DNA of 64,000 bases, from assembly GCA_947494825.1 (NCBI GenBank), contig CANLWN010000003.1:372001-436000 (forward strand), in the 5' to 3' direction. The stretch is from an uncultured Flavobacteriaceae bacterium. GTDB taxonomy: Bacteria; Bacteroidota; Bacteroidia; Flavobacteriales; Flavobacteriaceae. A program made the position numbers and the translations under genes. Below are positions 2,121 through 50,934 of the stretch, piece by piece (the stretch's first letter is position 1; each line of letters starts with the position of its first letter). The notes beneath the pieces are model-generated. The model worked only from the letters and a program-made list of their open reading frames with translations, was not told the origin of the DNA and made no database searches.

Positions 2121-2249
2121 ATTGGTACGGCGGGACTCGAATGCCGGTAAGCGTAGCTTGACCGGCATTCTGATTTCCGCAATGCGGATCATCAGTGGTC
2201 CCGCTCCCCCAAAACTTTTATGGAACTCATGTTTTTGGGAGCTACCAAT
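2121..2249 (-). repeat. Orphan tRNA-3'-end-like element with two-hairpin T-loop insertion (copy A)
   Basis: Read on the minus strand, a tRNA-like 3' end (GCGGG ... TTCGAGT CCCGC CGTACC) has 58 nt between the 5' T-stem strand (complement at 2200-2204) and the T loop (complement at 2135-2141). The insertion (2142-2199) folds into two hairpins: TGCCGGT/ACCGGCA (2142-2148 with 2161-2167) and CTGAT-TCCGC/GCGGA-ATCAG (2170-2180 with 2184-2195). The architecture equals that of the copies beside tRNA-Asp and tRNA-Leu, although most paired bases differ. A hairpin with a run of U (GCTCCC / GGGAGC around 2203-2242) follows the T-stem side, and 7-bp inverted ends ATTGGTA/TACCAAT (2121-2127, 2243-2249) enclose the whole. 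No complete tRNA is adjacent. Confidence 0.7.
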
Positions 2250-9353: not shown

Positions 9354-9500
9354 ATTCCGCCGATGGCGGGACGGGCAGGACTCGAATGCCGACGTTTGCG
9401 GCCCGCGACCCGTATCATTTCAGGGCCATGTTGTCCGTGAAGGATGATAACCCCAACCACGGGCCCAAAGCTCAGAAAAACAAAAAGCCAACTTGCCTTT
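9354..9500 (-). repeat. Decayed tRNA-3'-end element (copy B)
   Basis: On the minus strand: T-stem-like GTCGCGGG (complement 9402-9409), a 15-nt remnant of the insertion (9387-9401), then TTCGAGT and a mutated 3' T stem. The segment continues for about 100 bp with clear homology to the tRNA-Asp unit at 16.8 kb: a CCGCC-gat-GGCGG hairpin on one side (9357-9369), and GGGCCCAAAG ... AACAAAAAGCC ... AACTTGC on the other, matching that unit's trailer and terminator. Both insertion hairpins are largely lost and no tRNA is adjacent, so it is a relic. The rest of the 9204-9877 gap holds nothing recognised apart from a -7 element TAATTTTG at 9784-9791 for the next gene. Confidence 0.6.
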
Positions 9501-16728: not shown

Positions 16729-16976
16729 AAAGCCCCCAACTTGCGTTGAAGGCTACAACGGTCCGGATCCCGCCGATGGCGGGACAGGTGGGACTCGAAT
16801 GCCGACGCTCGCGGTCGGCACCCCGACTTCCGCATAGCGGAACGTCGGCGGCCCGCGGCCCTTATAATCTCAAGACCACGTGGTACATGGAAAATAATAA
16901 CATGGACAATGGGACCCAAAGGACCAAAAAAACAAAAAGCCCTCAACTTGCGTTGAAGGCTTTTTGCGGTCCGGAC
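16729..16976 (-). repeat. tRNA-Asp-linked 187-bp unit with two-hairpin T-loop insertion (copy C)
   Basis: On the minus strand, downstream of the intact tRNA-Asp, a second, altered tRNA-Asp 3' end appears. T-stem GCGCGGG-like strand (complement at 16852-16858), 52-nt core (16800-16851), T loop TTCGAGT, GTCCC..., a 22-bp insert with hairpin CCCGCC/GGCGGG (about 16769-16783), then the acceptor end TCCGGACCG (16759-16768) and a second copy of the trailer/terminator (16731-16754). GGGACTCGAA recurs at 16790 and 16977, so the unit is 187 bp. The core folds as TGCCGAC/GTCGGCA (16800-16806, 16814-16820) and CCGAC-TTCCGC/GCGGAA-GTCGG (16823-16833, 16837-16848). It equals the cores beside tRNA-Leu except in one loop. 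Confidence 0.75.
16934..16965 (-). terminator. Terminator of tRNA-Asp
   Basis: Directly after the tRNA 3' end on the minus strand: AAAAAGCCTTCAAC, loop GCAA, GTTGAGGGCTTTTT, followed by more T. A degenerate copy of this hairpin lies at 16731-16754 after the altered tRNA end. Confidence 0.8.
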
Positions 16977-17040
16977 GGGACTCGAACCCGCGACCCCCTG
17001 CGTGACAGGCAGGTATTCTAACCAACTGAACTACCGGACC
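16967..17040 (-). tRNA. tRNA-Asp (GTC)
   Basis: A complete 74-nt cloverleaf on the minus strand: acceptor GGTCCGG/CCGGACC with discriminator G, anticodon arm CCTGC-CTGTCAC-GCAGG (anticodon GTC), T arm GCGGG-TTCGAGT-CCCGT. CCA is not encoded. Its 3' end is followed by a terminator and then by the derived 187-bp unit. Confidence 0.96.
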
Positions 17041-24575: not shown

Positions 24576-24646
24576 CACCCCTTTTGAGGGATAAAAAACA
24601 AAAAGAATTAATAATCAGGGTCGGGCACCCTACAAATTAATGTGAT

Positions 24647-50170: not shown

Positions 50171-50556
50171 TTTTCTAATTTTTTGAAAAGCAAAATTGCA
50201 AAGTCAGGAGGCTATTTACATTGACTTGGGTTAAGAAAGGCCTAACGTTTGAACTTAAGGAATAAGAATTATACAGAAACATGGGATGAAAAATTGTAAG
50301 TTTAATTAAGTTGAAATAGGTTTGGTTGAAATTTGGAGATTGGATGTAGTCCCATAAAATCAAGGTTTTAAAGGACATCTTAATATACAATTAAATAAAT
50401 TTTGTGATTAAAAGGCATCAAAATATGTCGTTTCAAATGAGCCTCTAAAAAACAGTGATTTATTGTACCTATGTTGTACCTGGGCATGAAAAAAGCCCAG
50501 ACTTTCATCTAAGCTTTTGTATTCGTGCACCGTAGCGCAGCGAAGGTGTACCTTGG

Positions 50557-50708
50557 GTGGGAATCGAATGCCGACGCTCGCGGTCGGCACCCCGACTTCC
50601 GCAAAAGCGGAACGTCGGCGGCCCACACCTTGTCCCAAAACAAAAAAGCCCAGATCTTCATCTGAGCTTTGTACCCGTGCACCGAAGCGCAGCGAAGGTG
50701 TACCTTGG
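50557..50708 (-). repeat. tRNA-Leu-linked 152-bp unit, distal (copy D)
   Basis: On the minus strand this unit begins at the tRNA-Leu-type T loop of the proximal unit and runs through the acceptor end CCAAGGTA, a trailer, a terminator hairpin (AGCTCAGA/TCTGGGCT), a 13-nt tRNA-like stretch (complement 50622-50641), and a 53-nt two-hairpin core (50569-50621) ending at the next T loop. The tRNA 3' end and trailer beyond it (50489-50568) are a third copy that ends the array. Period to the proximal unit is exactly 152 bp. Core hairpins: TGCCGAC/GTCGGCA (50569-50575, 50583-50589) and TTCCGC/GCGGAA with an AAAA loop. Confidence 0.8.
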
Positions 50709-50860
50709 GTGGGAATCGAATGCCGACGCTCGCGGTCGGCACCCCGACTTCCGCAGAGCGGAACGTCGGCGGCCCACACCTTGTCCCAAAACAAAAAAGC
50801 CTAGACTTTCATCTAAGCTTTTGTATTCGTGCACCGTAGCGCAGCGAAGGTGTACCTTGG
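50709..50860 (-). repeat. tRNA-Leu-linked 152-bp unit, proximal (copy E)
   Basis: Same layout as the distal unit, sharing over 90 percent by eye, directly next to the intact tRNA. GTGGGAATCGAA stands at 50557, 50709 and 50861, so the spacing is 152 bp twice. In the intact tRNA this string is followed by CCCACACGTCC; in the units a 52-nt core (50721-50772) intervenes, then CCCACACCTTGTCC resumes the tRNA sequence with a 3-nt addition. The second core hairpin has an AGA loop, against AAAA in the distal copy. Confidence 0.8.
50793..50822 (-). terminator. Terminator of tRNA-Leu
   Basis: Minus strand AGCTTAGA-TGAAAG-TCTAGGCT then TTTTTT. Copies lie in both derived units; in the proximal one the stem reads AGCTCAGA/TCTGGGCT, a T-A to C-G compensatory change that keeps the pairing. 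Confidence 0.7.
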
Positions 50861-50934
50861 GTGGGAATCGAACCCACACGTCCTAAGACACTGGATTTTG
50901 AATCCAGCGCGTCTACCAATTCCGCCACCAAGGC
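50853..50934 (-). tRNA. tRNA-Leu (CAA)
   Basis: Complete 82-nt class II tRNA on the minus strand: acceptor GCCTTGG/CCAAGGT with discriminator A, D arm with GGAATTGGTAGACGC, anticodon arm CTGGA-TTCAAAA-TCCAG (anticodon CAA), a variable arm, and T arm GTGGG-TTCGATT-CCCAC. CCA is not encoded. It is the parent of the two 152-bp units on its 3' side. Confidence 0.95.

Follow-up and report, generated by a model that had tools for sequence, protein, structure and literature searches.

Tandem 152-bp double-hairpin units beside a flavobacterial tRNA-Leu gene: probable miniature derivatives of GIY-YIG homing elements

A 152-bp tandem array beside tRNA-Leu(CAA)

We analyzed a 64-kb stretch of DNA from an uncultured Flavobacteriaceae bacterium (hereafter, the window) and a tandem array that lies in it beside the gene for tRNA-Leu(CAA). 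The initial annotation had described tandem 152-bp units at this gene, a single full tRNA among them, and a T arm that is split in the other copies by a core of 52 to 53 nt, after which the tRNA sequence resumes; all of this held. TRF placed an array with a period of 152 bp and 2.5 copies at 50489–50872, and the sequence running from the T loop to the tRNA 3′ end begins at forward-strand coordinates 50872, 50720, and 50568, in steps of 152 and 152. The single full tRNA was the Leu (CAA) gene at 50852–50934 on the reverse strand (ARAGORN and Rfam). Each of the other two copies has a T arm interrupted between its 5′ T-stem strand and TTCGA; the interruption measures 53 nt at 50569–50621 and 52 nt at 50721–50772, and tRNA-like sequence picks up again beyond it. 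A 21-nt core pattern allowing at most three mismatches matched three times in the window and not once in 100 shuffles; the 152-bp repeat is not due to chance. The features of the locus are as follows:

50852–50934, reverse strand: intact tRNA-Leu(CAA), the host gene of the array (ARAGORN; Rfam tRNA, 60.7 bits)
50721–50872, reverse strand: unit 1, 152 bp, with T loop to tRNA-Leu 3′ end, trailer, terminator, variable-arm/5′ T-stem fragment, and double hairpin (period 152; without a GIY-YIG ORF)
50569–50720, reverse strand: unit 2, 152 bp, laid out as unit 1 (period 152)
50489–50568, reverse strand: final partial copy, with T loop, tRNA 3′ end, trailer, and terminator (start of the TRF array)
50721–50772, reverse strand: double-hairpin cassette, 52 nt, in the T loop, GTGTGGG-cassette-TTCGATT (covariance model R1, built with this family, 77.1 bits)
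50569–50621, reverse strand: double-hairpin cassette, 53 nt, in the T loop (R1, 80.3 bits; sequence used in building R1)

Read on the minus strand, in the sense of the tRNA, the order is intact tRNA-Leu(CAA), trailer, terminator, and then, two times over, a GTTTTGGGACAAGGTGTGGG fragment, a double hairpin of 52 or 53 nt, the sequence from TTCGATT to the tRNA 3′ end, a trailer, and a terminator; the 80 nt of the final partial copy match the copy at the intact gene at 99%. As GTTTTGGGACAAGGTGTGGG resembles the variable arm and 5′ T-stem of tRNA-Leu (GTCTTAGGACGTGTGGG), the cassette is placed within a copy of the tRNA, immediately ahead of the T loop. We found no GIY-YIG ORF in the 64-kb window and no integrase gene in the 152-bp units, which are too short to hold one, and the window cassettes matched no Rfam family at its cut-off. 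The window also contains an ordinary S16-Flavobacteria ribosomal leader RNA (Rfam RF03138) at 24607–24641.

Structure of the Double-Hairpin Cassette

Folding predicted two hairpins per cassette. Both carry a GAC-g-stem-GTC motif, in inverted orientations, and the GACG/CGTC sits within a bulged stem, not unpaired at the hairpin end; the junctions of the cassette read GG-cassette-TT(C/A)GA. The whole unit with its terminator had a folding z of −4.35, and the three cassettes alone reached −2.5, −1.5, and −1.4, with folds as good in 4, 15, and 16 of 200 shuffles. The stability of the cassette alone is only moderately above that of shuffles and is weaker evidence than covariation. In an alignment of six related cassettes (A1), nine cells had changes on both sides of a pair, against 2.7 in shuffles; only the first hairpin varies in it, the second being invariant, and 51 of 500 shuffles reached the alignment's number of two-sided-change pairs. 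An alignment of 12 cassettes (A3), fitted to the structure, had 26 such cells against 7.4 in shuffles. The hairpin pairs covary across relatives, which is better support than stability, and the two hairpins that the initial annotation had read in the core stand.

Copies Elsewhere in the Genome

The initial annotation had seen here a mobile-looking cassette that uses the T loop as its site and leaves the tRNA intact, and this part of its reading was borne out. Searches for the core in the genome and in relatives, including one with a covariance model, found copies at other tRNAs, such as tRNA-Asp (16800–16851), tRNA-Met, and tRNA-Asn. Model R1 found seven copies in this genome: two at tRNA-Leu, one at tRNA-Asp, one each in a D loop upstream of tRNA-Met (contig C4) and of tRNA-Asn (C3), one at C2:122924, and one at 2137–2197 of the window. 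Besides the array, the window thus holds the following:

16966–17040, reverse strand: intact tRNA-Asp(GTC) (ARAGORN; Rfam)
16800–16851, reverse strand: the same cassette as in the Leu array, 52 nt, splitting the T loop of a degenerate copy of tRNA-Asp (R1, 77.3 bits; used in building R1)
16766–16786, no strand assigned: second palindrome, TCCCGCC..GGCGGGA, in the acceptor strand of that tRNA-Asp copy (read in the sequence; folds as a hairpin)
9387–9401, reverse strand: short remnant of a cassette, 15 nt, in a further tRNA-Asp-like fragment (BLAST match weak, E 0.046)
2137–2197, reverse strand: diverged double-hairpin cassette in an orphan T arm (R1, 43.1 bits; not used in building R1)

The cassette at 16800–16851 has tRNA-Asp flanks. 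No tRNA was found within the 3 kb fetched around the orphan T arm at 2137–2197. The tRNA-Asp-like gene whose T loop contains the copy at C2:122924 (L070) is complete and belongs to a tRNA cluster, with no intact Asp neighbor in the fetched 3 kb. Double hairpins in this genome split tRNA copies at GG-TT(C/A)GA in both T and D loops, which counts in favor of the homing element discussed below. Further partial tRNA copies, often split by a palindrome, were found at Thr, Lys, Arg, a second Met, Ala, and Gly, among others, in a survey of tRNA flanks that covered 30 of the 53 matched tRNA loci and read 17 in full.

Two loci of this genome (G000) had a makeup of their own. The cluster at C2:122–124 kb (L070 and L147) comprises at least 10 tRNA genes and two split tRNA-Asp-like copies, one split by a double hairpin and the other by a CCTG-type palindrome. 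At tRNA-Thr(GGT) on C12 (L007), two tandem 3′ units lie 110 bp apart, and the T stem of each is split by a CCTGCCCGCC..GG(C/T)GGG palindrome.

Relatives in Other Genomes

Exact-core searches are too narrow for this family: a 76-nt DNA query against 60 relatives gave, beyond this genome, two weak 17-nt matches only, and the core pattern with at most three mismatches had this genome as its sole match among 395 genomes of the phylum. A pattern scan of contigs returned 17 loci, 15 of them chance-like and 2 real when judged by eye; these first relatives elsewhere were a split tRNA-Ser(GGA) in a Sphingobacteriales MAG (L040) and a decayed tRNA-Arg copy in a Chitinophaga MAG (L039). The split tRNA-Ser copy also bears a TCCGCCTAGGCGGA palindrome in its D loop. 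A broader model, R2, matched at least 10 of 397 family genomes, this genome included, a lower bound because the search scored 14 candidates per genome. We read 20 of the 23 R2 matches in other genomes, leaving out one weak partial and two that were the reverse strand of matches already listed (L087, L091, and L093), and ARAGORN found a tRNA in the fetched locus for 16 of the 20. Three weak cassette matches in genome G042 (E 0.02 to 0.09) were intergenic, with TTGAA-like flanks on one side and no tRNA within the fetched 3 kb, which counts against a homing element.

Tandem arrays in other genomes had ORF-bearing units as well. In G703, a 132-bp unit without an ORF stands beside a 517-bp unit with one, their cassettes nearly the same; this array ties the 152-bp window units directly to the ORF-bearing form. 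The periods of arrays elsewhere were 366, 361, 368, and 352 bp: units of 366 bp at tRNA-His of G734, three ORFs with a period of 361 bp and a palindrome CCTGCCTGCCGGCAGGCAGG in the anticodon loop at tRNA-Arg(TCG) of the same genome, and units of 352 bp at tRNA-Leu(GAG) of G774. The 368-bp GIY-YIG units of G656 (L137; C1:3512800–3516500) carry tRNA-His 3′ ends, and the nearest tRNA in the Rfam list lies 30.7 kb off.

The number of units at tRNA-Leu(CAA) varies between genera, in line with the initial annotation: no such unit was found in about 260 nt 3′ of this gene in four other genera (G729, G734, G656, and G774). The genomes compared are different species, and the comparison of empty with occupied sites is one between genera, the genus-level search having comprised this genome alone. 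All four of those genomes carry a D-loop element 5′ of tRNA-Leu(CAA), with identical palindrome and place, and in another genome (L186) a T-loop unit with a different palindrome was present at tRNA-Leu(CAA). The D-loop elements are mirror images, with a tRNA 5′ half, a palindrome, an ORF, and the intact tRNA, and some have an ORF whose end reaches into the tRNA gene (at Ser in this genome, at Met in G656, and at Pro in G729). In two of them (L163 and L164), a TAnnTTTGC-like motif, which we take to be a promoter, precedes the split 5′ half, and the nuclease gene may therefore be read from the tRNA promoter. A double hairpin follows directly after the tRNA 3′ end at the tRNA-His loci of G555, G554, and G729, where we saw no split half.

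Intact and displaced tRNA parts and their trailers were mostly near-identical within one genome, which fits local duplication or homogenization as well as homing. For the same reason, we dropped the idea that displaced halves are foreign as a general rule; one 5′ half in G734 differs from the intact one (GCTCAAG vs. GCCTTGG).

A Small GIY-YIG Nuclease Associated with tRNA Genes

In several relatives, tRNA and cassette are separated by a small ORF whose stop codon abuts the cassette. The ORF encodes a GIY-YIG nuclease (Pfam PF01541, E 9e-16 to 5e-17 for three proteins), and the Y, Y-x-G, R, and E columns were invariant among 14 such proteins. The catalytic residues are thus present in the relatives, while the units of the window are without an ORF; similarly, the ORF-bearing relatives combine a nuclease of their own with an interrupted site, and the window belongs with them only as a derivative.

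In two one-contig genomes, we counted how many small GIY-YIG loci have a tRNA gene within 500 bp; about 1.1% would be expected. There were four of nine in G734 (P = 2e-6) and three of nine in G656 (P = 1e-4), P values that are too favorable as both genomes were chosen through cassette matches near tRNAs; among the large UvrC/DnaQ-like GIY-YIG loci of the two genomes, none of six was near a tRNA. For a class-wide search, we ran a profile of 14 tRNA-linked nucleases on 395 Bacteroidia genomes. Among the matches listed, with E of at most 5.5e-23, were 103 of the 395 genomes, and 260 matched at E ≤ 1e-8, ordinary GIY-YIG genes included; this genome had eight matches at the latter threshold, most of them away from tRNAs. 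Taking the best locus of one genome each, 29 of 30 loci had a tRNA gene no more than 500 bp away, and these tRNAs span many isoacceptors. One of these 29 is the Arg locus of this genome, and the other 29 genomes contributed nothing to the query.

Beyond the ORF, 22 of the 29 class loci had a partial tRNA copy (score of at least 28; our count, without a shuffled control), and 10 of the 20 3′-type loci have a far-side copy that begins at the T-loop TTC. Two results count against a homing element: the remaining 7 of the 29 had no clear partial copy (score under 28), and three KSG-like nucleases (L101, L157, and L168) had no tRNA in the fetched flank. The data show this nuclease clade to be tRNA-linked and say nothing of GIY-YIG genes in general.

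Nuclease Clades, tRNAs, and Palindromes

On a tree of 48 nuclease domains, the tRNA labels needed 12 changes, with a minimum of 11 and a mean of 27 for shuffled labels, none of 200 shuffles being as low. The Leu(CAA) nucleases of four genera, the Arg(TCG) nucleases of two, and the Pro nucleases of two grouped together, and 17 of the 20 nucleases without a tRNA in the fetched flank clustered as a group of their own. The His and Leu(GAG) nucleases formed no single clades, which counts against homing, and the tree is weak at depth, with 16 of 45 forks open. We dropped the 7-mer GGTTNRA alone as the cause of the tRNA preference, as the nuclease clades track tRNAs.

The C-terminal type of the nuclease, KNL or KSG, fits the type of the palindrome. 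With one row per locus (L098 and L170 being the same), a CCTG palindrome lay within 150 nt at 20 of 33 KSG loci and at none of 38 others (P = 3e-9), and a double hairpin was found at 14 of 16 KNL loci and at 9 of 55 others (P = 3e-7); both P values are too small, as the patterns were partly picked by eye after part of the data had been seen and related loci do not count as independent. For KNL, 16 of 380 shuffled flanks passed the double-hairpin test. Counting against the fit, the palindrome was absent from 13 of the 33 KSG loci, and the 9 of 55 loci that passed the double-hairpin test were non-KNL.

In this genome, PF01541 matched 13 times at E ≤ 1. Two intact KSG-type genes stand at tRNA-Arg(TCG) and tRNA-Ser(TGA), and we saw no intact KNL gene among the 13. 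A stretch of 35 codons 3′ of tRNA-Leu(GAG) is 57% identical to a KNL nuclease (E 2e-10; 7e-6 with a KSG one), and the remainder of this broken gene is lost, including the part expected to hold the KNL motif. Given that the only KNL-like gene seen here is a broken one, the window's double-hairpin units look orphaned, and we consider this their best reading.

A Homing-Element Model and Its Alternatives

We consider it likely that the two 152-bp units derive from free-standing GIY-YIG homing elements resident in tRNA genes and are ORF-less, nonautonomous forms of them. Starting from the observed anatomy, the tRNA association, the pairing of nuclease with palindrome and with tRNA, and the broken nuclease gene in this genome, we infer the cutting, the homing or mobility, and the role of the hairpin as follows. 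A full element consists of the intact tRNA, a terminator, a GIY-YIG gene of about 80 codons, a brief repeat of what lies immediately upstream of the target, the hairpin cassette, and the displaced 3′ part of the tRNA with its terminator; the mirror form at the D loop, 5′ of the tRNA, has the tRNA 5′ half, hairpin, ORF, and intact tRNA. The nuclease would cut an uninterrupted tRNA gene at a site in the loop (here GG^TTCGA), and repair off an element-bearing template would copy the element into the cut gene. A working tRNA would remain because the element holds a second copy of the displaced part. The hairpin would mark the junction and break the site in the displaced copy. Cutting and unequal repair could then produce tandem arrays, and loss of the ORF could leave miniature units such as those of the window, persisting after the nuclease gene dies. 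The family would thus work like a free-standing homing element, judging from relatives that have both an active-looking GIY-YIG gene and an interrupted site. Against this, the intact tRNA retains the uninterrupted site.

The initial annotation had explained the array by a 152-bp circle that a site-specific recombinase integrated in Campbell fashion, crossing over in the T loop. Unit boundaries can be set at the T loop and an intact tRNA does stand at one end of the array, but tRNA sequence borders the cassette on either side, in the complete tRNA-Asp-like gene of L070 as well, D-loop and anticodon-loop sites exist, and relatives carry a GIY-YIG ORF in units of 352–517 bp. The circle was therefore abandoned as the best reading and is highly improbable; no recombinase is needed for the 152-bp units. 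Ordinary tandem duplication, in which slippage or unequal exchange multiplies tRNA ends and recombination keeps them homogeneous, the hairpins being incidental, would account for the near-identity of the units. A possible microhomology at the joint of the duplication (GT.TT.GGAC) would suit it too, and the tandem 178-bp repeats at tyrT of Escherichia coli are units that likewise carry a tRNA 3′ end, though to our knowledge with no T-loop cassette and no nuclease gene. We find this reading quite unlikely because the cassette is shared and its flanks are not: one cassette occurs in different tRNAs (Leu and Asp) with tRNA-specific flanks, and related cassettes occur in other taxa, in copies of Ser and Arg tRNAs. 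The far-side copies that start at the TTC of the T loop also speak against it. That the split tRNAs are expressed and spliced, the cassette being a new kind of tRNA intron at position 53/54, could be suggested by the long tRNA sequence on both sides of the cassette in L070 and L040. Most interrupted copies that we read are truncated and stand beside an intact gene, however, and the window cassettes matched no Rfam family as noted above; an intron is very improbable.

A REP/REPIN-like palindrome pair could instead be mobile itself, through a Y1 (RAYT-type) transposase acting at GG^TTNRA, with the tRNA duplications and the GIY-YIG genes as separate passengers. This would fit inverted hairpin pairs without target duplication and the lone copies in the tRNA-Asp-like gene of L070 and in intergenic DNA of G042, and REP dimers inside palindromes have been described (PMC3733652). 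However, Y1_Tnp (PF01797) had no match at E ≤ 1 in this genome, the palindrome type tracks the GIY-YIG clade, and the GIY-YIG stop codon adjoins the cassette. We rejected a RAYT-driven REP on the first of these grounds: by the Y1_Tnp test in this genome, this is not a RAYT-REP system. The wider reading, with its passengers, is unlikely.

Comparison with Known Systems

The double-hairpin elements of Allomyces mitochondrial DNA consist of two adjacent hairpins that insert in genes, in a mitochondrial setting. Our literature search joining GIY-YIG and tRNA, covering the top-ranked results of part of the open-access literature, returned nothing on such elements in bacterial chromosomes. Tiny selfish elements in the loops of bacterial tRNA genes, equipped in their full form with a small DNA-cutting enzyme, are apparently an undescribed family.

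The element resembles SegB of T-even phages, a free-standing GIY-YIG homing endonuclease that is tied to tRNAs and drives tandem amplification (PMC13096335). In the available part of that source, the gene is enriched near tRNA genes and implicated in cutting tRNA-containing sequence, and its tandem amplification runs via microhomology between the tRNA 5′ end and the segB 3′ end. SegB is phage-borne, and the same part describes neither a hairpin cassette nor a split tRNA half; the likeness drawn here is one of features (PMC13096335). SegB nevertheless provides an experimental precedent for a tRNA-linked GIY-YIG nuclease causing tandem amplification. Mobile ORFs in fungal mitochondria, with duplicated gene ends, have been found in atp6 of Allomyces and in atp6, atp9, cox2, and nad3 of Glomus (PMC3630166). 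There, too, an endonuclease ORF (GIY-YIG in atp9) has on one side a foreign gene end, which makes the gene whole again, and on the other the native end that was displaced, a precedent for a duplicated gene end restoring the gene. The hosts are mitochondrial protein genes, the available part of the source describes no hairpin junction, and donor and native ends clearly differ whereas those of the tRNA elements mostly do not (PMC3630166). With REPs, REPINs, and CGTC-tagged REPs the tRNA elements share short palindromes in inverted pairs (PMC3733652), but the palindromes of the tRNA elements sit in tRNA loops and pair with GIY-YIG nucleases. CGTC REPs, which according to the same text have no known transposase, are defined by an unpaired CGTC end tag, whereas the GACG of the cassette lies in a bulged stem.

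It is conceivable, and we offer it tentatively, that small GIY-YIG nucleases are the dedicated movers of several bacterial palindromic-repeat families, each clade with its own palindrome and tRNA loop. If so, this would be a RAYT-independent REP system that nests in tRNA genes, with an intact copy of the tRNA part in place of splicing, and REP families without a known transposase, such as the CGTC REPs, might have a like explanation. The elements would be very small selfish ones, at 352–517 bp with the gene and 132–152 bp without it in the arrays measured, and would form a class found in many Bacteroidia whose invasion of an essential gene is made good by an intact copy of the tRNA segment that is split, and not by splicing. 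The pairing of nuclease and palindrome makes testable what moves transposase-less palindromic repeats. Such elements could also account for tRNA pseudogene arrays, for some contig breaks at tRNA genes, and for nuclease genes that adjoin tRNAs.

Two contigs of this genome end in or near arrays of tRNA copies, C7 at its end (L005) and C3 at its start (L058). Repeats of this kind may break assemblies; the end of C7 breaks off in an apparent T-loop cassette after tRNA-Gly.
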